From: Hylemonella sp.
Lineage (GTDB): Bacteria > Pseudomonadota > Gammaproteobacteria > Burkholderiales > Burkholderiaceae_C
NCBI RefSeq assembly: GCF_027532185.1
Contig: NZ_JAPZSV010000002.1
Coordinates: forward strand, 1 to 64,000
Direction of reading: 5' to 3'
DNA length: 64,000 nt
The notes beneath the pieces are model-generated. The model was not told the origin of the DNA. It did not search any database and was given only the letters and a program-made list of their open reading frames with translations. The translations under genes and the position numbers were made by a program. This document shows, one piece after another, positions 16,558 through 26,310 of the stretch. Each line of letters starts with the position of its first letter. Within the stretch, counting starts at the first letter, position 1.

Positions 16558-16684
16558 ATAGCGGATTTCGGCCAACCCAGAAATGAGAAAAACCAGTAAT
16601 CGAACGTCCACTTCAGTCGAAATCAGACTTCCCCATTCCCGACCGGCGGAACTACAGTGCGCCGTACGATCAAGGAGTTTTCCT

Positions 16685-17503
16685 ATGAAAGAAGTGTCGT
16701 CCGGGGTAGTTGTCGAAAGCCGAATGGAGCACCGCGCAGTACCCAAGCACTGGGGGGAAAGCGAACTCACGAAATTCTTGGCACACTTAGAACGGCAGAT
16801 ACTCGGATCGTTCGCGGGTCTTCCCGAATGGTTTGGCATCTTGATTCGGATAGACCAATCTGTCACAGAGAAGGCCCCCACCTTTTTTCATGAGATCGAT
16901 CCGCTGCGGCGAACCTCAGTGAGGCTCTTTATGCGCTGCTTCGCGACGTACCGTGCGGCAGTTCGACTTTCCGTTAGCGGCCAGCTATTCGAGGCAACCG
17001 TCCTTATGAGATCTCTTCTCGAAAGCGCTGTCTACGCGTGGGTATGCAGCGCGTCAGACAAGCACAGAAAGGCATGGGAGGAAAGGGGTGATGGCGACGC
17101 AGAGCGGAAGATGTCCAGAAAGCTCTTTTCGTGGGTAGATTTATTGAAGCTTCTAGAAGGTGCCAACAAGGTCTTGGCGGAAAGGATTTCCGTCGAATAT
17201 GAGCAGCTTATTGACTATGGCGCCCATCCGAATGTGGACGGACTCGCACTGAGTTCAGATGTCAGGCAATTGGATCATGACAAATACGAGATCATCACTG
17301 TGTTTGCTCACGGCCGCGAAGCTGTACTGCTAGCCATACTCGATCTGCTTAGGTGCATGCACTATGTGTGTCAATTGCTGTTCATGGTAATCAAGGAGCG
17401 TCTTCAGATTTTGGGCTTGGATACCGAATTTCTGAAAACGTCAGAATTAATTCATGAGTTGATCGGCAAGCTTGAAGCCGAACAGAGAATGAAAGTGGCT
17501 TAG
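16685..17503 (+). CDS. Orphan helical protein of unknown function, low-GC
   Basis: A 272-residue protein, started at the ATG at 16685 because AGGAG (16673-16677) sits 7 bases upstream. It is cytosolic and mostly helical with no signal or clear membrane segment. The stretch FEATVLMRSLLESAVYAW recalls the R-x3-E helix of DUF5677-like/HEPN-fold helical families, but that is a weak resemblance and I do not assign a function. Base composition and codon use (TTCGGCATCTT, AATTAATTCATGAG and similar) are clearly more AT-rich than in flanking genes, which suggests recent acquisition. It has no operon partner: the next gene is convergent. Confidence 0.75.
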   Translation: MKEVSSGVVVESRMEHRAVPKHWGESELTKFLAHLERQILGSFAGLPEWFGILIRIDQSVTEKAPTFFHEIDPLRRTSVRLFMRCFATYRAAVRLSVSGQLFEATVLMRSLLESAVYAWVCSASDKHRKAWEERGDGDAERKMSRKLFSWVDLLKLLEGANKVLAERISVEYEQLIDYGAHPNVDGLALSSDVRQLDHDKYEIITVFAHGREAVLLAILDLLRCMHYVCQLLFMVIKERLQILGLDTEFLKTSELIHELIGKLEAEQRMKVA

Positions 17504-17618
17504 GTCATTCGTCCTCTTTCGACGGCCACTTCCCCTACGGAGTGGGCACTCGGCCTGAAGCAGCGGGTATCGGAAATCGGGCGAGAGCGTACTGAAGCTT
17601 TGTCCTGCCCTGTATTGA

Positions 17619-18080
17619 TCAATAGACCCAAGGCACAAACCGCTTGGTCTGCTCGCGGTAATGCGCATAACCCGGATGCTGCGCCAGCATCCAGCGCTCT
17701 TCCAACCCCGACTTGATCCACAGCACCAGCAGCAGTGCCCCCCAGGCCAGCCAGGCCGTTTCGGAATCCGCCGTGCGTACCAGTGCCAGGGCGCCGAGCA
17801 GGAAGGATGTGTACATGGGGTGGCGGATCCAGCCGTAAGGACCGCTGGTGACCAGCGCGCCGCCCACGCGCGGGCGGGGGTGGATGTTGAAGTTGCCCGG
17901 GCGGTTGGCCCGCAGGGCCCAGCCGGCCAGCAGCAGGGCAGAGCCGGCCATGGGCCAGGCGGCCAGCGGGATGGCGCCGTGTTCCAGGACAGGCCAGGCC
18001 AGCAGGGCCAGTACCGCAAGTAGGCCGAACTGCAGCAGCACCAGCACGGAGCCGGTCCAGAGGCGCTGCCGTTCGTTCAT
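17619..18080 (-). CDS. ICMT/PEMT-family integral membrane methyltransferase-like protein
   Basis: A 153-residue inner-membrane protein with about four helices. The C-terminal core GPYGWIRHPMYTSF followed by LEERWMLAQHPGYAHYREQ is the signature of the isoprenylcysteine carboxyl methyltransferase / phospholipid methyltransferase superfamily, which binds S-adenosylmethionine. Bacterial members rarely have a known substrate. An ATG at 18080 gives the full first helix. It is GC-rich like core genes, in contrast to the gene on its other side. It is 121 bp downstream of the CPBP protease gene on the same strand and might be read from the same RNA. Confidence 0.82.
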   Translation of the reverse strand: MNERQRLWTGSVLVLLQFGLLAVLALLAWPVLEHGAIPLAAWPMAGSALLLAGWALRANRPGNFNIHPRPRVGGALVTSGPYGWIRHPMYTSFLLGALALVRTADSETAWLAWGALLLVLWIKSGLEERWMLAQHPGYAHYREQTKRFVPWVY

Positions 18081-18201
18081 CGTGGGCCTCAGAGTTTGGT
18101 GAGTCGTTCCTGCGCAGTGTGCAGCGTTTTGTTCTTATTGGCAATGCAGGCGCGCCTTGGCGGCGTGTTCCCTTTGACTGGTCTGCGATGGTGCCGGTGG
18201 C

Positions 18202-18972
18202 TCATCCCAGCCAGCGCGCCGCACCGAAGACGAGATGGGTGCAGGCATGTGAGGTCATGGCGCACTCCAGGCTGCGGCGCCAGAACAGCCATCCGTAGAC
18301 GGCGCCAGCCAAGACGTTCATCAGCATCGACTGCGCCACGACGACCGGGCTCGGTTCGACCAGTAGGGCGAGTGCCGGGTAGTGGCTCACGGCGAAGATC
18401 AGCGCTGATACGCCGATGCTGGACCAAGCGATTACATCCGTCACCTGAGTCTCTCCACGAGACAGACGGCCGAATGTCCAAGCGAGGCCGCATGCGGCAA
18501 GGCTCATCACACCCCAGCGCATGATGATCTCCTCTGCGATGCCGCCGTAGAGTACGCCGGTAACAAGCATGGTCCAAGATTGTGACGCGACAGCCGACGA
18601 GAGGTGTGGGGCCGATGCCGCCAGCAGGGGCTCGGGGAACAGCTTGTCCAGGAGCACCAGCGCCAGTCCCACCATCATGCCGGCGAGCAGCCCGAGTCGG
18701 AGGTCGGGCCGTGCGCCAGCGTCTCCCGCCAGCGCGCTGCGAAAGCCGACCCTGTGCGCACATGCAACGCCGGCCGCGGCCATGCAGATGACGAGCACGG
18801 CCGGGCCTGCCGCCAGGAGCAGGCGCAGGACCCAGTCGGGGAGCGCATGCAACTGTGGCTCCCGATCCAGCAGGGCCGCCGGAGGCTCCTGAAGCATCAG
18901 TCCCATGAGGCCGATCATGCCGACGCCACACAGCGAAAAGAAACGGCGCGCATGCTTATGAACTGAGGGCAT
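18202..18972 (-). CDS. CPBP-family intramembrane glutamic endopeptidase
   Basis: A 256-residue polytopic membrane protein of the CAAX protease/bacteriocin-processing (Abi/CPBP) family. The catalytic motif is E147-E148-x3-R152 (EEIIMR). The second motif, F-x3-H, is FAVSH with H197, and the third has H242/H246 in SHACTHLVFG. All expected catalytic residues are present. An AGGAAC ribosome site precedes the ATG on the minus strand. Family members mature or confer immunity to bacteriocins, or process prenylated proteins. Here it follows, after a 164-bp gap, an operon encoding a secreted Cys-rich protein and a condensation-domain enzyme, so a processing or immunity role for that product is possible but unproved. 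Confidence 0.85.
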   Translation of the reverse strand: MPSVHKHARRFFSLCGVGMIGLMGLMLQEPPAALLDREPQLHALPDWVLRLLLAAGPAVLVICMAAAGVACAHRVGFRSALAGDAGARPDLRLGLLAGMMVGLALVLLDKLFPEPLLAASAPHLSSAVASQSWTMLVTGVLYGGIAEEIIMRWGVMSLAACGLAWTFGRLSRGETQVTDVIAWSSIGVSALIFAVSHYPALALLVEPSPVVVAQSMLMNVLAGAVYGWLFWRRSLECAMTSHACTHLVFGAARWLG

Positions 18973-19003
18973 ATCTGGTTCCTACTTAGGAGGTGACGAG
19001 CAA

Positions 19004-19048
19004 GTGATCCTGCGTCCCCGTACGGCCTCGCAGACGGGCTGTGGGTAA
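19004..19048 (+). other. 14-codon open frame behind a perfect Shine-Dalgarno sequence
   Basis: AGGAGGTGA (18988-18996) is the full anti-16S complement and lies 7 bases before a GTG that opens 14 codons (MILRPRTASQTGCG). It runs antisense to the gap between the GNAT and CPBP genes. It may be a small peptide, a decayed gene start, or chance. Confidence 0.2.
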
Positions 19049-19136
19049 GAGGGCTCTGGGTCCAAGCTTCCGCGTCTGGCTGGTGCGCGTCATGGAAGTA
19101 CCGGCGTTGGTCCTGGTTGGACGGTCTGGACGGAAC

Positions 19137-19589
19137 TCACGTTCTAAAGGTGTAGCTCAGAAACTCCGTCTCACGGACGAAGCCCAGCCGTTCATAGAGT
19201 TGCCGTGCCTGATGGTTGGCGGCGGCCGTCTCCAGGGTGATGAAATCCACGCCGTGCGCCCGCGCCATCTGTATTGCGTGATTGATCAATTCGGTGGCAA
19301 CGCCACGGCCGCGTTCCGCGGCCACAACGTAAAGGTCGTTGAGGATCCAGGCGTGTTTGCAGCGCACGGAGGAGTACGTCGGGTAGATTTGCGCAAAACC
19401 CAAGGCCGAGCCCTGCTTGTCCAGGGCAAGCAGAACAGTCGACTCGTGACGGCTCAGGCGTTCGAAAAGGAAGTCGCGTCCGCGTGCGGTATCCGACGCC
19501 TGCCCGTAGAAACGGCGGTAGGCGTCAAAGAGGGGGACGAGCTGTGGGAGGTCCTGGACGGTCGCTTGGCGTAGGGTGATCGCGCTCAT
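19137..19589 (-). CDS. GNAT-family N-acetyltransferase
   Basis: A 150-residue acetyl-CoA-dependent acetyltransferase covering the whole GNAT fold. The acetyl-CoA loop is AAERGRGVATEL (Q/R-x-x-G-x-G/A type), followed by FITLETAAANHQARQLYERLGF. I start at MSAITLRQ (19589), which has GAGGA upstream, rather than an earlier in-frame ATG that would overlap the preceding gene. The GC content is somewhat below the core genes. It is the last gene of a tight minus-strand run, 8 bp behind the membrane protein gene, so it may acetylate the product of, or a precursor for, the condensation-domain enzyme. It could also be an unrelated amine acetyltransferase. Confidence 0.88.
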   Translation of the reverse strand: MSAITLRQATVQDLPQLVPLFDAYRRFYGQASDTARGRDFLFERLSRHESTVLLALDKQGSALGFAQIYPTYSSVRCKHAWILNDLYVVAAERGRGVATELINHAIQMARAHGVDFITLETAAANHQARQLYERLGFVRETEFLSYTFRT

Positions 19590-19597
19590 TTCTGTCC

Positions 19598-20392
19598 TCA
19601 ACGTGCGTGCAGCCATTGCGTCTGGTGCACTTGTGGCTGGCCTTTGGCGAGCAGGAGTCTATCGATCGCGACTTTCTCCAGCACAGCGGCGTGGGTATCA
19701 CCCATCAATCGGGCCTCCGCCAGTGCGCCTAGAGCGAGCGCGAGGTCGTCCTCCTTGCTGCTGTGCAGTAACACGAGACCGGCGTCTCTCAGGGCGCTGA
19801 CCGGCAAGGTCTCGCTCTCTTCGAGTGCCGTCTTGACGGTGTCCCGGCGCTTGGCGTCGCGCTGTGGGTTGAAAACAAAGCAGGCGGTGCGTCGGTCTTC
19901 CTGGTCCGTTCTCACTGCCCAGTCGATCCGCTCGTGGGCAGGCAGCTGGTGGACTATCGTGATGTCGGCGCAACTTGCCGGGCCCACCAGCGTTAGCAGA
20001 CTGCCGAGCGCAGCGACGGTGGCGAGCGACATGGCTGCAAGCCCGGTACGAACTGCGGTTGGAATCAGGGCCAAGAGGCTGCCGAGCAGAAAAGTGAGCA
20101 GGGTGATCGGAAGCAGCAGGAGCGCCAGCAGTCCGATCCACGGCACCAGCCCGAGGGGGATGAGGGCCGCGTACACCAGCATGGCAAGCGGTCTGGGCGA
20201 GCCATGCAAGAGCCACGTGGTCAGCATTGCCCAGCACAACAGCAAGGACCATGTCAGCCGGGCACCATACTGGCTCATGACCTGTCCGCTCCAGTCCGCG
20301 GCGGCCAGGAGACCTAGTATCAAAAGTAGCCCGACGGCCAGGGCATGCACCCCTGCTCCGGGCACCCGTTGCGTTGGCTGCACAGTCTTCAT
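19598..20392 (-). CDS. Membrane protein of unknown function with a C-terminal soluble domain
   Basis: A 264-residue protein I do not recognise. Residues 1-140 form about five or six hydrophobic helices (GLLLILGLLAAADW; PLGLVPWIGLLALLLLPITLL; GLAAMSLATVAALGSLLTL). Residues 141-264 form a soluble domain (ADITIVHQLPAHERIDWAVR ... LALALGALAEARLMGDTHAA). Its ATG overlaps the stop of the condensation-domain gene by 4 nt, implying coupled translation. The 3' end is 8 bp from the GNAT start. It is not an ABC or MFS transporter by any motif. It could be a membrane anchor for the neighbouring enzymes or an immunity/export factor. Confidence 0.78.
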   Translation of the reverse strand: MKTVQPTQRVPGAGVHALAVGLLLILGLLAAADWSGQVMSQYGARLTWSLLLCWAMLTTWLLHGSPRPLAMLVYAALIPLGLVPWIGLLALLLLPITLLTFLLGSLLALIPTAVRTGLAAMSLATVAALGSLLTLVGPASCADITIVHQLPAHERIDWAVRTDQEDRRTACFVFNPQRDAKRRDTVKTALEESETLPVSALRDAGLVLLHSSKEDDLALALGALAEARLMGDTHAAVLEKVAIDRLLLAKGQPQVHQTQWLHAR

Positions 20393-21717
20393 GCAGTCTC
20401 CAGGCAGGACTTGGGCAAGCCACTCGCAAGGCGCCCGTGTGCGTTCAGTCTCTCGGTTAAGCCCCTAGCGAAGTGATGCAGGATCGCGCCCGCGCCTGCG
20501 GCATGTCGGGTGTGCAGCTGGAGATGACTGCGTCCCGCTAGATCGATGCGTGTGAGCACCGCTAGCTGGCCTGGAAGTGGCTGGACGGTGAGTCCGGTCT
20601 GAGTAACGGCATCACATATCCCATGCCACTCCCGGTCGACGGCCCCAAGATCACTGATCACGAGGTAGGACGGCGCGGATGCCATCGCGAGACGGGCTGC
20701 ATCAACGTCGGCCGCATGATCGCCGGCTTGACCGAGCCACGGCAGCACGTTGAGTAACCAGGCGGGAAAGGCGCAGTCGAGACCCGCCTGGACCTGGGTA
20801 TGAACGTCGACCGCGACGGTCGATGGGCAGTCGTTGTTGGAGATCCTGTGTCGACCGAGCAACAGGCCGGCGCGACAGGCCAGCACCGGCGGGGTCGCCT
20901 CGAAGCGCCGCATGTCAACGGCATGGCTGAGCGCAACTGAGACGTCTCCCACGCCCATCGCGTCCCTCAATGCGAGCAGCGCATGGCCTGAGAGCATGGC
21001 ATGCGTGCTCACGCCCAGCGCCTGCGACTCCGCCCGAAGCTTGGTGTGGCTGCCGGTGCCGAGGGTGATGCTTTGGATGGTTGGCAGGCAGGGCGCGGTG
21101 TCGTCGGGGCTGAGCGGGAGGCGCACTGACCTCTGGATCGCATGCATCTCCTGCATCCACCTCCTGCTCGCGGCTCGAACACGCTCGTTCGAAACTACCG
21201 GCTCGAAAGCGGATGCGAAGGGCTGCGGGCCGTACTTTGCTGGCACGCCGAGGGTAAGCCGCAGGAGGTCACCCATCAGCGCGACTGCGCCGCGTCCGTC
21301 CATGATCGCATGGTGGAAGACTAACGCGATTCGTTCGATACGTCCTCGATGGCCAACCAGAAGGCACCGCACGCCTGGGCTCCCGCTCATGTCGAGCGAG
21401 AGCGCATGGTTGCGCAGGTATTCCCAGTCTGGACCGCATAGGCAAGGGTCGCCGGCACGCATTGGGATGGTGGTCAGGCAGTGGCCAACCCCCGGGCTGA
21501 TGCCGGGCACGGTCCGCAGGGACTCGTGCATGGAGACCAAGCAACTAAAGGCAAGTCGTACCTTCGTCTCGTCTAGCGGTTGGCGAAGACGGACGTGGAT
21601 CGTAAAGTTCTGTCTCTGGATAGCGTCAAGCGCGAAGAAGAAGCGTTCGACACGGTCAAGAGATCGCCTTGGGTGATCGGAGTTGCCGTGAGCCGTGGGC
21701 GTAAGCTGATATGTCAT
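20389..21717 (-). CDS. Stand-alone condensation-domain (CoA/ACP-dependent acyltransferase-like) protein
   Basis: A 442-residue enzyme of the condensation-domain/PapA/wax-ester-synthase superfamily. The catalytic motif HHAIMDG is at residues 135-141 (H135, H136, D140, G141). The protein spans one full pseudo-dimeric condensation fold: the N-half starts at DRVERFFFALDAI and the C-half includes SHAVDMRRF and YLVISDLGAVD. No adenylation, carrier or thioesterase domain is fused or adjacent, so it is not a classical NRPS module. It should form an ester or amide using a carrier- or CoA-bound acyl donor supplied elsewhere. It lies 43 bp behind the Cys-rich protein gene and overlaps the membrane protein gene, which makes a four-gene operon with the GNAT. 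Confidence 0.82.
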   Translation of the reverse strand: MTYQLTPTAHGNSDHPRRSLDRVERFFFALDAIQRQNFTIHVRLRQPLDETKVRLAFSCLVSMHESLRTVPGISPGVGHCLTTIPMRAGDPCLCGPDWEYLRNHALSLDMSGSPGVRCLLVGHRGRIERIALVFHHAIMDGRGAVALMGDLLRLTLGVPAKYGPQPFASAFEPVVSNERVRAASRRWMQEMHAIQRSVRLPLSPDDTAPCLPTIQSITLGTGSHTKLRAESQALGVSTHAMLSGHALLALRDAMGVGDVSVALSHAVDMRRFEATPPVLACRAGLLLGRHRISNNDCPSTVAVDVHTQVQAGLDCAFPAWLLNVLPWLGQAGDHAADVDAARLAMASAPSYLVISDLGAVDREWHGICDAVTQTGLTVQPLPGQLAVLTRIDLAGRSHLQLHTRHAAGAGAILHHFARGLTERLNAHGRLASGLPKSCLETA

Positions 21718-21760
21718 TGGTCAGGGGGGAGTCCGTTGGGTTGGCACTTGCGCGCCAGCG

Positions 21761-22138
21761 TCATTCCTTGAGCAACTGGCAGTTGGATCGATGAGCGTGG
21801 ACGCATCCTTCACTGCAGACCGCGTCTCCGTAGCGGTTGATGGCTGCACGTCCCCCGGGCATGGACGAGCACATCACTTCACCCCGAGCGTCGGTGACGC
21901 AGCGGCCAATCCCACAGGTCGGCTGCGAATAGCGGTCCAGAACGGCTCCGCCGCCAGGACCTGCACAGTGCCAGTCACCGTACCTGTCTTTCACACACTG
22001 GGCCCTGGGGGGAGGGCAGAGCGTGTTCCCGTGTCGGTCAACGACACAGTCCTGATTTGCGAGGGAAATTCCTGGGGCCAGGAGCGCATGGCAGAGGGCC
22101 AGCTTCAGGGCGATACAGAAGATTTGTAGCGTTCTCAT
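21761..22138 (-). CDS. Secreted cysteine-rich protein with five 17-residue repeats
   Basis: A 125-residue protein with a signal peptide (about 1-27, MRTLQIFCIALKLALCHALL, cut near SLA|NQ). The mature part has ten cysteines (31, 41, 48, 58, 75, 80, 90, 108, 112, 120). A motif x-D/N-R-x-x-x-x-x-C recurs at residues 33-41, 50-58, 67-75, 82-90 and 100-108 (for example KDRYGDWHC, INRYGDAVC), a period of about 17 residues. This suggests a small disulfide-rich solenoid in the periplasm or outside the cell. I do not recognise the family. It is the first gene of the minus-strand operon containing the condensation-domain enzyme, and it diverges from the MocR-type regulator. Confidence 0.8.
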   Translation of the reverse strand: MRTLQIFCIALKLALCHALLAPGISLANQDCVVDRHGNTLCPPPRAQCVKDRYGDWHCAGPGGGAVLDRYSQPTCGIGRCVTDARGEVMCSSMPGGRAAINRYGDAVCSEGCVHAHRSNCQLLKE

Positions 22139-22166
22139 GTTTTCTGTTCATAAGTTTCTTGGTTGT

Positions 22167-22180
22167 GGTCTGTGCAGACC
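22167..22180. promoter_or_regulatory. Palindrome in the divergent regulator/Cys-rich protein promoter region
   Basis: GGTCTG-TG-CAGACC is a perfect 6+6 inverted repeat in the 179-bp region between the divergent starts at 22138 and 22318. It is 28 bp upstream of the Cys-rich gene and is a candidate operator. Confidence 0.4.
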
Positions 22181-22317
22181 GATGTCGGCGATTTCGAGAC
22201 CCTTGGACCTATTCGAATGCGGCCCTGATCTATGTCTGTGCCGGAATCAATGGGTGTGATTGCGCCCGAAGCGGGAATGATTCACTAGAATTGGACTGAC
22301 GAAAAGAACCGGTTTTC

Positions 22318-23856
22318 ATGAAACAATCAGACCAGTTGGCGACCTTGTTCGCGCACGCGATCTGGCGGCTCGATCCGGACGCAGGCTCACTGCGTGTGCA
22401 GATGTATAGGCAACTGCGGGACGCGGTGACCGAGGGGCGTGTGGCTCCCGGGACCGTATTGCCGTCGACACGCGATCTCGCGGCTGTGCTCGGCGTCTCG
22501 CGTAGCACGGTCGTCGAGGCGCTGGATCAGCTGCGCATGGAGGGCTATCTGGTCACGCGACAGGGTGCTGCCACGCGCATAGCCGCCCTGGACCCCATCC
22601 ACCTGAATAATGTCGCCAAGCGTCCCACCGCGACCGAGCAGCACTGGGAGCAAGCGGACGGATCGCCGACTTTGGGAGTCCAGCACTGGCTTCAGGACGA
22701 TCCCCCAACTCCCGTGACGATCAGGGCGTTTCGTCCGGGACTACCCGATATCCGAGCCTTTCCCGCACAGGTCTGGGCCACCCATCTAGGGCGGCGCGCG
22801 CGTCAGCCCGCTAGCCATGACTTGAGTTACGTGGGGCATGCCGGAGTTTCCAGCCTGCGTGAGCAGATCGTTCGCCACATCGCGGAGACTCGCCATGTTG
22901 TTGCCCGACCAGAGCAGGTGATCGTTCTACCCTCGGCGCAGACCGCGTTTGATGTCGCGATGCGGTGCACCCTGCGGGAGGGGGATACTGCATGGGTGGA
23001 GGATCCCGGTTATCCGGGCATACGGACCCTGTTGCGTGCGCACAAGGCTCGAATCGAGCCCGTGCCAGTGGATGTCGAGGGACTGTGCCCAGCCGGGCAG
23101 CGTTCACGGCCGCGGCTCATCTACCTCACACCCTCTCATCAGTACCCGACCGGCACGATGCTGTCGCTCGCGCGTCGCCTGGAACTACTTGAAGTGGCGC
23201 GAGCGCATGGTGCGGTGATCATCGAGGATGATTTCGACAGCGAGTTCCAGGCTCATGGGCAACCTGTGGCCAGCCTCCAGGGCTTGGACCGGAATGGGGT
23301 CGTGATGTATGTCGGTACGTTTTCCAAGTCACTCGCACCAGGCTTGCGGATCGCATATTTGGTTGTTCCGCCTGCCTACGTCGGCCTGGCGGAGACGATC
23401 GTATCGGGAACGGGTATCGGCGTTTCAATCCATGTTCAGCTGGCGATGGCTGATTTCATGGCCTATGGTGAGCTGCGACGCCATATACATCGCATGAATG
23501 TTGAGTACTCGAAGCGGCTAAGAACCTTGCATCGGATTCTCAGCGGAGCAGGTTATGAGCTGATCCTTCCCAGCAAGCTCCTCGGGGGCTTGCAGTTGTG
23601 CATCGGCCTTCCGGAACCCCTGATCGATCTGGACGTAGTGAGCGAACTGCAGTCACGGGGCCTTGTGGCGCTACCGCTGTCCGCGCTATGCCACGGGCAA
23701 GAGTGGCGAGGACGTCAGGGGCTCCTGCTTGGCGTAGGTCTCGTGCCAACCGATGAGGTCGAGCCAGCCGCCCGAACATTGTGTGCCGCACTGGAGCAAT
23801 GTAGCGAAACCGTGGCTCGCAGGGCAGCCCGTCGCGCCAGGCGCACTCCGCAATAG
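22318..23856 (+). CDS. MocR/PdxR-type GntR-family regulator with aminotransferase domain
   Basis: A 512-residue transcription factor. The N-terminal GntR winged helix (about 20-90) contains GTVLPSTRDLAAVLGVSRST. A linker leads to a fold-type I aminotransferase-like domain (about 120-490) with the PLP lysine K337 in VGTFSKSLAPGLR and the IIEDDFDSEF segment. Members sense pyridoxal phosphate or an amino-acid adduct and control pdx, GABA, taurine or other genes. No pdx gene lies nearby. The gene diverges from the operon of Cys-rich protein, condensation enzyme, membrane protein and GNAT, which is therefore its most likely target. GC is a little below the core genes. Confidence 0.9.
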   Translation: MKQSDQLATLFAHAIWRLDPDAGSLRVQMYRQLRDAVTEGRVAPGTVLPSTRDLAAVLGVSRSTVVEALDQLRMEGYLVTRQGAATRIAALDPIHLNNVAKRPTATEQHWEQADGSPTLGVQHWLQDDPPTPVTIRAFRPGLPDIRAFPAQVWATHLGRRARQPASHDLSYVGHAGVSSLREQIVRHIAETRHVVARPEQVIVLPSAQTAFDVAMRCTLREGDTAWVEDPGYPGIRTLLRAHKARIEPVPVDVEGLCPAGQRSRPRLIYLTPSHQYPTGTMLSLARRLELLEVARAHGAVIIEDDFDSEFQAHGQPVASLQGLDRNGVVMYVGTFSKSLAPGLRIAYLVVPPAYVGLAETIVSGTGIGVSIHVQLAMADFMAYGELRRHIHRMNVEYSKRLRTLHRILSGAGYELILPSKLLGGLQLCIGLPEPLIDLDVVSELQSRGLVALPLSALCHGQEWRGRQGLLLGVGLVPTDEVEPAARTLCAALEQCSETVARRAARRARRTPQ

Positions 23857-23899
23857 CGCAATTTCTCTGGATCACTGAGGTGGGTTGCGTCGCCTCACC

Positions 23900-25057
23900 C
23901 TACAGTCGTGCCAGGCGTTCGAGCGCCGTCTTCAGCGTCTCATCCTTCTTGGCGAAGCAGAAACGCACGACCTTCTGATCAAAGCCGTTGCCGTAGAAGG
24001 CCGAGAGCGGGATGGCGGCCACGCCGATTTCGGTGGTGAGCCATTTGCAGAAGTCGGCTTCATTGAGGTCACTCACGGCCGAGATGTCCACGCACTGGAA
24101 GTAGGTGCCCTGGCCGGGCAGCATGCGGAACTTGGTTTTCTTCAAACCTTCGCGGAACAGGTCGCGCTTGCGCTGGTAGAAGGCGGGCAGGTCCAGGTAA
24201 GGCCGCGGGTCGGCCATGAAGTTGGCCAGGCCGTGCTGCACCGGGGTGTTGACGGTGAAGACGTTGAACTGGTGCACCTTGCGGAACTCGGCCGTCAGCG
24301 GCGCGGGCGCGGCGACGTAGCCCACCTTCCAGCCGGTGACGTGGTAGGTCTTGCCGAAGCTGCTGACGATGAAGCTGCGCGCGGCGAGCGCCGGAAACCG
24401 CGCGGCGCTTTCGTGCTGCTGGCCGTCGAACACCATGTGTTCGTAGACCTCGTCGGAAATCACGAGGATGTCCGTCGGGTCCAGCAGCGCCTGCAGCTGC
24501 AGCATTTCCTCTTTCGTCCAGACCATGCCGCTGGGGTTGTGTGGGCTGTTGATGAGGATGGCGCGGGTCTTGGGTGTGATGGCGGCAGCGATCTTCGAAA
24601 AATCAGGGCGGAAGGTGCCGGGTGTGAGCGGCACGCGCACGACCACGCCGCCGGCCAGCTCGATGTTGGGCACATAGCTGTCGTAGCAGGGCTCGAGCAC
24701 GATGACTTCGTCGCCCGGGTGCACGATGGCCAGGATGGCGGTGAGGATGGCCTGGGTGGCGCCGGCGGTGATGGTGATCTCGGTGTTGGCGTCGTAGCGG
24801 TGGCCGTAGATGGCCTCGACCTTCTTGGCGATGGCTTCGCGCAGCGCGGGCACGCCCGTCATGGGCGGGTACTGGTTGAGGCCACCCTTCATGGCGCCAG
24901 TCACCGCGTCCACCAGGCGCGGATCGCCCTCGAAGTCCGGGAAGCCCTGGCCCAGGTTGACGGCACCGCGTTCGGTGGCGAGGGCGGACATGACGGTGAA
25001 GATGGTGGTGCCGACCTTGGGCAGGCGGCTCTGGAGGGCAGGAGTGGTCGGATTCAT
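23900..25057 (-). CDS. PLP-dependent aminotransferase, YbdL-like (methionine/aromatic 2-oxo acids)
   Basis: A 385-residue fold-type I class-I aminotransferase. The substrate end has AVNLGQGFPDFEGDPRL, then AGATQAILTAILAIVHPGDEV and INSPHNPSG. The PLP lysine is in SSFGKTYHVTGWK and the carboxylate-binding arginine near VVRFCFAKK. It is closest to YbdL-type methionine aminotransferases and kynurenine/glutamine transaminase-like enzymes. It probably transaminates methionine or an aromatic amino acid, recycling 2-oxo-4-methylthiobutyrate. It is downstream of the CysB-like regulator on the same strand, separated by a dispersed repeat. That is consistent with, but does not prove, sulfur-linked control. 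Confidence 0.88.
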   Translation of the reverse strand: MNPTTPALQSRLPKVGTTIFTVMSALATERGAVNLGQGFPDFEGDPRLVDAVTGAMKGGLNQYPPMTGVPALREAIAKKVEAIYGHRYDANTEITITAGATQAILTAILAIVHPGDEVIVLEPCYDSYVPNIELAGGVVVRVPLTPGTFRPDFSKIAAAITPKTRAILINSPHNPSGMVWTKEEMLQLQALLDPTDILVISDEVYEHMVFDGQQHESAARFPALAARSFIVSSFGKTYHVTGWKVGYVAAPAPLTAEFRKVHQFNVFTVNTPVQHGLANFMADPRPYLDLPAFYQRKRDLFREGLKKTKFRMLPGQGTYFQCVDISAVSDLNEADFCKWLTTEIGVAAIPLSAFYGNGFDQKVVRFCFAKKDETLKTALERLARL

Positions 25058-25124
25058 GCGGAGAGGATACGCAAAGTTTGTAGGGTTCTACTAAGGCGCT
25101 GGGCGGGGCTTTTACCAGGGCTCC

Positions 25125-25211
25125 CGTGGAACCGGCTTCGCCGGGCCACTGGGAGCGTCCCCCCGCCACCGCAGGATGAGCGGGGGGAAGGCGCGCAGCG
25201 CCTCAGGGGGG
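25125..25211. repeat. Dispersed hairpin repeat, copy A
   Basis: It begins CGTGGAACCGGCTTCGCCGG (inner hairpin CCGGCTTCGCCGG) and ends in a C-run/G-run hairpin and CCTCAGGGGGG. The same block recurs at 62486-62562 and, inverted, at 51327-51411. All three copies are intergenic. Confidence 0.8.
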
Positions 25212-26165
25212 CTAGAGTTCATAGTCTGTGTGTTCGCCACGCATCACACGCGCCACCAGCTCACGCTGCAGGCGGTCACTCAGCAGCTCGGCGAATTCGT
25301 AGACGAAGTTGCGCAGGTAGGCGCCCTTCTTGAATGCCACGCGCGTGACGTTCTTGCCGAAGAGGTGGCCCAGGGGGCGCACCACCAGCTCCTCGGTGCC
25401 GGCCAGCACCGGCATATTGCGCACGGCCATCTCGGCCACCAGGCCCAGGCCCATGCCGAGCTTGACGTAGGTGGTGATCACGTCCGAGTCGATGGCTTCG
25501 AGCACGATGCGCGGCGCGAGCTTGCGCTGGGCAAAGGCCGTGTCGATGCGCGTGCGGCCTGTGAAGGTGGGGTGGTAGGTGATGAGGGGCTCGGCGGCCA
25601 GGTCCTCGAGGCTCAGGCGCTCCTTGCCGGCCAGGGGGTGGCTGGCAGGCAGCACCAGCACGTGCTGCCATTCGTAGCAGGGCAGGGTGACGAGTTCGTC
25701 GTAGTCTGCCAGCGATTCGGTGGCGATGCCGATCTCGGCCACCTCGTCGATGAGCATGCGCGCCACCTGGTCCGGGTTGCCCTGGTGCAGCGAGAGATTG
25801 ACCTTGGGCCAGGCTGCGCGCAGCTTGGCCACCGGCTCGGGCAGCACATAGCGCGCCTGGGTGTGGGTGGTGGCGATGGAGAGGGTGCCGCTGTCCTGCT
25901 TGCTGTACTGCTCGCCGATGCGCTTGAGGTTGCCGACCTCGCGCATGATGAGTTCGATGCTCTTGAGCACCTGCTGCCCGGGCTCGGTGATGCGCTTGAG
26001 GCGTTTGCCGTGGCGGGCGAAGATGTCGATGCCCAGCTCTTCCTCGAGTTCGATGATGGCTTTGGACACGCCGGGCTGCGAGGTGTGCAGGGCCTTGGCC
26101 GCCTCCGTGAGGTTCAGTCCCTGGCGGGCGGCCTCCTGGACGAAGCGGAACTGGTGCAAATTCAT
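25212..26165 (-). CDS. cysB: CysB/Cbl-type LysR-family transcriptional regulator
   Basis: A 317-residue regulator. An N-terminal winged helix (residues 1-60, MNLHQFRFVQEAARQGLNLT ... HTSQPGVSKAI) is followed by the two-lobed effector domain with the CysB hallmark TTHTQARYVLP (about 100-110), which binds sulfate, thiosulfate or O-acetylserine/N-acetylserine. I start at MNLHQFRF, as CysB starts MKLQQLRY. An upstream in-frame ATG at 26216 would add 17 atypical residues. It should control sulfate assimilation or sulfonate use. No cys genes are adjacent. A copy of the dispersed repeat abuts its stop codon. Confidence 0.9.
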   Translation of the reverse strand: MNLHQFRFVQEAARQGLNLTEAAKALHTSQPGVSKAIIELEEELGIDIFARHGKRLKRITEPGQQVLKSIELIMREVGNLKRIGEQYSKQDSGTLSIATTHTQARYVLPEPVAKLRAAWPKVNLSLHQGNPDQVARMLIDEVAEIGIATESLADYDELVTLPCYEWQHVLVLPASHPLAGKERLSLEDLAAEPLITYHPTFTGRTRIDTAFAQRKLAPRIVLEAIDSDVITTYVKLGMGLGLVAEMAVRNMPVLAGTEELVVRPLGHLFGKNVTRVAFKKGAYLRNFVYEFAELLSDRLQRELVARVMRGEHTDYEL

Positions 26166-26310
26166 GGCGAATTCCGGATAAAGAAGGCTTTTATTATGCC
26201 TCTTAGTGTCTATCAAGAGGCTCTTTCCTGCCTGGGACGTCGATCCTTGGCTGCCAATAGCCCTAGCTTCCAGTCAAGGTCTGGCCCTGCCTGGTTCAAG
26301 AGTTCCTGAG

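Follow-up and report, generated by a model that had tools for sequence, protein, structure and literature searches.

A foreign gene block with a PdxR-like regulator and a stand-alone condensation-fold protein at an insertion hotspot in Hylemonella

A 64,000-nucleotide stretch of the Hylemonella sp. genome (contig NZ_JAPZSV010000002.1, positions 1 to 64,000; called the window below) contains a foreign block of about 5.7 kb and six genes (18150-23890), which sits between an aminotransferase gene and an ICMT/PEMT-like gene. Four minus-strand genes at 19137-22138 code for a Cys-rich secreted protein, a condensation-fold protein, a membrane protein and a GNAT N-acetyltransferase, and genes for a CPBP membrane protein and a divergent MocR-type regulator complete the block. 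The four genes probably form a real, acquired and regulated operon, two members of which are orphans. Our preferred reading, to which we give a probability of about 0.45, is that the block is regulated cargo acquired at an insertion hotspot and not a known biosynthetic system, and that it may serve the acylation of a small metabolite under the control of pyridoxal phosphate (PLP).

Entry of foreign DNA beside an aminotransferase gene

Across the genus, the junction between the aminotransferase gene (23900-25057) and the ICMT/PEMT-like gene (17619-18080) is a hotspot for insertions. The DNA comparison covered 25 congeners; loci were fetched from 20 of them, and both flanking genes were located by blastn in 14. 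In eight of these 14 loci (L059, L060, L061, L064, L066, L067, L068 and L072) the two genes are neighbors that either overlap or lie up to about 45 bases apart. We call the site a hotspot because the other six (L063, L065, L069, L070, L071 and L073) hold differing cargo there, and in the window the entire 18150-23890 interval separates the two genes. The congener cargo includes VapC-like genes, an amidohydrolase gene with TctC- and LysR-like genes, and anti-sigma-like and lipoprotein-like genes, and in L062, a congener with no ICMT match, the site holds restriction-modification-like genes; these names come from reading open reading frames (ORFs), with no family search. Fragments of the flanking genes are duplicated at the hotspot in several congeners (L071, L072 and L073).

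The hotspot location, which the block shares with the restriction-modification-like and VapC-like cargo of the congeners, would fit an antagonism or defence cassette. We consider such a function of the window's block very unlikely, as no match was found in PADLOC or PHROGs for its Cys-rich, condensation, membrane and CPBP proteins, the four island proteins tested, and no toxin-immunity pair was recognized.

The far edge of the block is marked by a decayed duplicate of the aminotransferase 3′ end (18098-18155, minus strand), directly before the ICMT-like gene. This copy is identical to the aminotransferase-ICMT junction of two congeners at 55 of 66 (L060) and 56 of 66 (L061) positions, but it matches the aminotransferase end of the window itself at only 40 of 60. 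The insertion therefore displaced the original gene end. That foreign DNA came in at the 3′ end of the aminotransferase gene, whether in one step or in several, is shown by three features together: the site is empty in congeners, the gene end is duplicated and the codon use is biased. One-sided homologous joining of incoming foreign DNA, a mechanism described in PMC3240628, would explain the displaced gene end and may have operated here.

The GC content at the three codon positions (GC1, 0.63-0.71; GC2, 0.44-0.54; GC3, 0.67-0.77) is typical of coding DNA. The lower GC of the block relative to core genes, claimed in an earlier note on this DNA, is clearest at third positions, where the six island genes have values of 0.68-0.77 versus 0.85-0.90 in five core neighbors.

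The four-gene set and its condensation-fold enzyme

The four minus-strand ORFs lie where the earlier note had placed them, packed with spacings of 43, -4 and 8 bp in the order Cys-rich (21761-22138), condensation (20389-21717), membrane (19598-20392) and GNAT (19137-19589). The acetyltransferase call also held (PF00583, 74.2 bits). Its start was picked by spacing and by the GGACAG that precedes the ATG, 8 bp past the membrane-protein stop; a longer ORF beginning at 19616 would overlap. Downstream, after a gap of 164 bp, the minus-strand gene at 18202-18972 encodes a CPBP (Rce1-like) membrane protein, probably an intramembrane protease (PF02517, 40.6 bits; cut-off, 22.4). Four terminator-like sites were found in 17400-24200, against 4.0 expected, none of them between the four genes; a search of the same interval for consensus sigma-70 promoters gave none, against 1.3 expected. 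The Pfam families that passed their cut-offs are PapA_C, GNAT, Rce1-like, GntR and aminotransferase. A Pfam scan of ten genes (16583-26216) found no adenylation or carrier domain, and the block has no adenylation, carrier or thioesterase gene.

Sequence and predicted fold place the condensation-fold protein in a known superfamily as a genuine, though divergent, member. Described beforehand as a carrier-free condensation enzyme with an HHAIMDG motif, the 442-residue protein indeed has an intact HHxxxDG motif (HHAIMDG, residues 135-141) and passed the PapA_C model (PF16911, 37.5 bits; cut-off, 30). Its scores were below the cut-off for Condensation (PF00668, 22.9 versus 30.6 bits) and far below that of the NCBIfam acyltransferase PapA5 model (47.4 versus 396 bits). 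The predicted structure (predicted local distance difference test [pLDDT], 79.6; predicted template modeling score [pTM], 0.85) has the two lobes of the condensation/chloramphenicol acetyltransferase fold and matches 8s6l (TMq, 0.70), an entry titled AzeD dehydratase from Pseudomonas aeruginosa, and 1q9j (TMq, 0.59), PapA5, with E values of about 1e-18. A sequence-profile search of solved structures ranked the same two entries first and third, respectively.

In size, predicted two-lobe fold, HHxxxDG motif and lack of a fused adenylation or carrier domain the protein resembles these PapA5/AzeD-type enzymes, whereas identity in the fold alignments is only about 16-19%, no polyketide or peptide synthase gene is nearby, and Asp replaces the Asn of the family at position 356. 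With the condensation domains of nonribosomal peptide synthetases (NRPSs) it shares the superfamily and the catalytic motif; it differs from them in standing alone, in its score under the PF00668 cut-off and in the absence from the block of the partner genes named above.

Relatives of the condensation gene are distant. Besides the gene itself, genome searches gave matches in 7 of 148 other relatives, 13 of 397 genomes of a phylum sample and 16 of 398 of a family sample; the samples overlap, and all matches are weak (best E value, 1.6e-7). No congener has one. A scan of 84,980 species, one genome each, with single-sequence patterns detected no relative, and alignment-based patterns in the same scan detected 45 loci, the best-scoring 28-30% identical; such scans find only relatives that match the pattern. 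Over the stretches examined, relatives of the Cys-rich, membrane, GNAT and CPBP proteins are all absent from the 45 loci; a generic MocR match occurs in one (L110). In an alignment of 33 sequences (the window protein, 31 of the 45 loci and L084), H135, H136, D140, G141 and R270 are identical in all 32 relatives, and position 356, Asp in the window protein, is Asn in 31 of 32.

The 264-residue membrane protein was said to be unrecognized, and no Pfam, NCBIfam, PHROGs or PADLOC family was found for it at the thresholds used. Hydrophobic segments fall within approximately residues 8-147 and are followed by a polar C-terminal part of about 117 residues. The 25 congeners, plasmids and phages gave no match to it, and the 368 other genomes of the class that were searched gave one, which is weak. 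Either the protein is an orphan of this lineage, or it has diverged from its relatives beyond detection.

The regulator and the Cys-rich protein

The regulator gene (22318-23856, plus strand) and the CPBP gene flank the four genes as the earlier note had it. The regulator has GntR (PF00392, 57 bits) and aminotransferase (PF00155, 85.7 bits) domains, both above cut-off, and passed the PdxR model of NCBIfam (NF052282; 378.6 bits versus 320). A divergent promoter region of 179 bp (22139-22317; GC, 0.49) fills the gap between it and the Cys-rich gene. The imperfect palindrome in this region, GGTCTGTGCAGACC (22167-22180), is within chance expectation, as 439 of 2000 shuffles hold such a repeat.

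According to PMC5320631, MocR genes are often divergent from their targets, and PdxW regulons include RimI/RimL acetyltransferases, PdxQ regulons RimI. Of 1380 plasmid records, 12 relatives were listed; in this list, the two that score highest in bits (45% and 40% identical) stand divergent to genes of the pyridoxamine-5′-phosphate-oxidase family, and a GNAT gene and a VOC gene lie near one of them. Two further relatives from the list carry no annotation. The window's regulator resembles PdxR/PdxW-type proteins in its domains, divergent layout and model score, and differs from them in having no vitamin B6 gene next to it. By analogy, we may fairly infer that it senses PLP.

These features could also point to a PLP-homeostasis or stress cassette, in which a PdxW- or PdxQ-like regulator would have the GNAT gene as its main target and the other genes would be riders. 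The PdxR model score, the oxidase-family neighbors of the two plasmid relatives and the acetyltransferases of the PdxW and PdxQ regulons agree with this explanation. We nevertheless find it improbable, as the GNAT gene is fourth and not first, the block has no oxidase or known transporter gene, and none of the four loci fetched for full-length relatives of the GNAT has a MocR match. These four loci, with GNAT relatives that are 40-46% identical, hold none of the other island genes. CPBP relatives, 35-36% identical, were found in 2 of 64 other genomes, also without the other island genes save in one case. In a genome of another genus (G026, L160:13519-15226), the CPBP relative and a GNAT remnant (59% identity across 32 residues) are about 0.7 kb apart, a faint hint that the two genes may travel together.

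The first gene of the set encodes a protein of 125 residues and 12 Cys, 10 of which lie at residues 31-120 past a hydrophobic leader, in agreement with its earlier description as a secreted ten-cysteine protein. The Cys layout and the leader would suit disulfides formed outside the cytoplasm. No Pfam, NCBIfam, PHROGs or PADLOC family was found at the thresholds used. Of five structure models, three had mean pLDDT values near 85-87 and two near 55; the one kept has block means of 90-97 for residues 31-120. Its confidently predicted beta-repeat fold has no clear match in the PDB. With a two-sequence profile, homologues 44-55% identical and with a common Cys layout were detected in 5 of 99 other relatives, four of which are among the 25 congeners while the fifth belongs to another genus; a sixth, more distant homologue is at L043 (genome G377).

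None of these six loci, of 12-19 kb each, has a condensation, membrane or CPBP relative, and none has a GNAT gene close to the homologue, the nearest indication, in G377, being a weak match (E value, 0.006) at a distance of about 9 kb. The locus of the second genus has a generic MocR relative about 4 kb from the homologue, and L144 has a short, weak MocR match (E value, 0.004). The congener proteins share the secretion leader as well, and their genes have VOC-type and MXKDX-repeat neighbors instead of the block's enzymes. In the four congeners, a VOC-type gene and a short gene of MXKDX-repeat type, labels that come from reading, stand beside the homologue; one such protein (L145:8964-9227) consists of a leader followed almost only by MXKDX-type repeats. 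A small secreted family with C-x-x-DRYG-x-x-x-C repeats was seen at L142, L143, L144, L145 and L146.

These observations bear on the function first suggested for the operon, a modified-peptide or surface-acylation system in which the Cys-rich protein would be acylated by the condensation enzyme and the GNAT, processed by the CPBP protein and exported. Gene order, spacing and the position of a small secreted protein as first gene are what such a system would have. The proposal stood up in part: the set is compact, has its own divergent regulator, was gained as a block and has no partners of NRPS or ribosomally synthesized and posttranslationally modified peptide (RiPP) pathways in the stretch scanned. 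The Cys-rich protein as modified substrate did not fare as well, because its gene occurs independently of the block's partners, and peptide modification or surface acylation found no comparative support. The Cys-rich protein also matches no NCBIfam or Pfam family, and the enzyme, which by reading has no export leader, resembles enzymes acting on small molecules, whereas its supposed substrate would be exported by its leader. We regard this explanation as quite doubtful, more so than the PLP-homeostasis cassette.

Possible function of the acquired block

The earlier note had named independent scattering of the genes in relatives as a result that refutes its proposal. Scattering was found for three of the five families, Cys-rich, GNAT and CPBP, on the basis of six, four and two loci, respectively, one of the CPBP loci having the GNAT remnant. 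For the condensation and membrane families, no close relative was found with which co-occurrence could be compared. Chance assembly, in which the hotspot would have gathered unrelated cargo, the tight spacing would be ordinary compaction and no joint product would exist, is thus a serious alternative. It is favored by the differing cargo in 6 of 14 congener loci, by the Cys-rich, GNAT and CPBP relatives that occur apart from the other genes, save for that remnant, and by the 45 condensation loci without partners. Conversely, the like GC3 of the six genes, the 4-bp overlap, the 8-bp gap and the dedicated divergent regulator point to joint expression. We judge chance assembly unlikely on balance, yet not far behind the preferred explanation.

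In the preferred explanation, regulated cargo for small-metabolite acylation, the MocR/PdxR-type protein would sense PLP and switch on the divergent operon. The condensation-fold enzyme would move an acyl group from coenzyme A or an acyl-carrier protein to a small and probably hydrophobic metabolite, at a hydroxyl or an amine, and the GNAT would acetylate the same or a related amine. The membrane protein would export or anchor the product, and the CPBP protein would be a loosely linked addition. The Cys-rich protein would be an independent cell-envelope protein, a passenger on the operon and not a substrate.

Several points weigh against this proposal. A joint function lacks comparative support because no close condensation or membrane relative was found, and the genes may yet be a single peptide-modifying unit confined to this lineage. 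The block has no PLP-related gene, next to the regulator or elsewhere. The predicted fold does not guarantee acyl transfer, because the best solved match, 8s6l, is titled a dehydratase, and the change of Asn356 to Asp could have altered or abolished the activity of the enzyme.

A bolder proposal, which we hold to be a long shot, is a lineage-specific PLP-controlled secretion and acylation operon. In it, a divergent AzeD/PapA5-like enzyme with the Asn-to-Asp change and an entirely new membrane protein would together make or load an acylated product, and this product would act in the envelope jointly with a disulfide-rich beta-repeat protein of new fold.

Two features lie outside the block. On the ICMT side, a DUF5677-like gene (16583-17503) has a GC content of 0.508, a GC3 of 0.57 and a very different codon use, and it matches PHROG 36906 (function not assigned); it looks like a second, separate low-GC insert. 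On the other side, a GC-rich repeat of about 98 bp (25114-25211) lies between the aminotransferase gene and a CysB-like gene. Among the matches listed, it occurs at five places in this genome and at many in congeners, at most 97% alike. Its folding beats all 200 shuffles (z, -2.9), and it has no Rfam match.

For the genus, these results show a chromosomal hotspot, next to a housekeeping aminotransferase gene, that takes up foreign blocks repeatedly. The block in the window supplies an enzyme without close relatives that has a predicted condensation fold and, at a conserved position, an unusual residue. It also supplies a member of a small family of secreted Cys-rich proteins, the predicted fold of which matches no solved structure clearly. 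Should the operon prove to be one pathway, it would yield a new acylated metabolite; if PLP-controlled secretion and acylation are indeed combined in it, it would represent a small acylation system of a new kind that follows neither NRPS nor RiPP logic.

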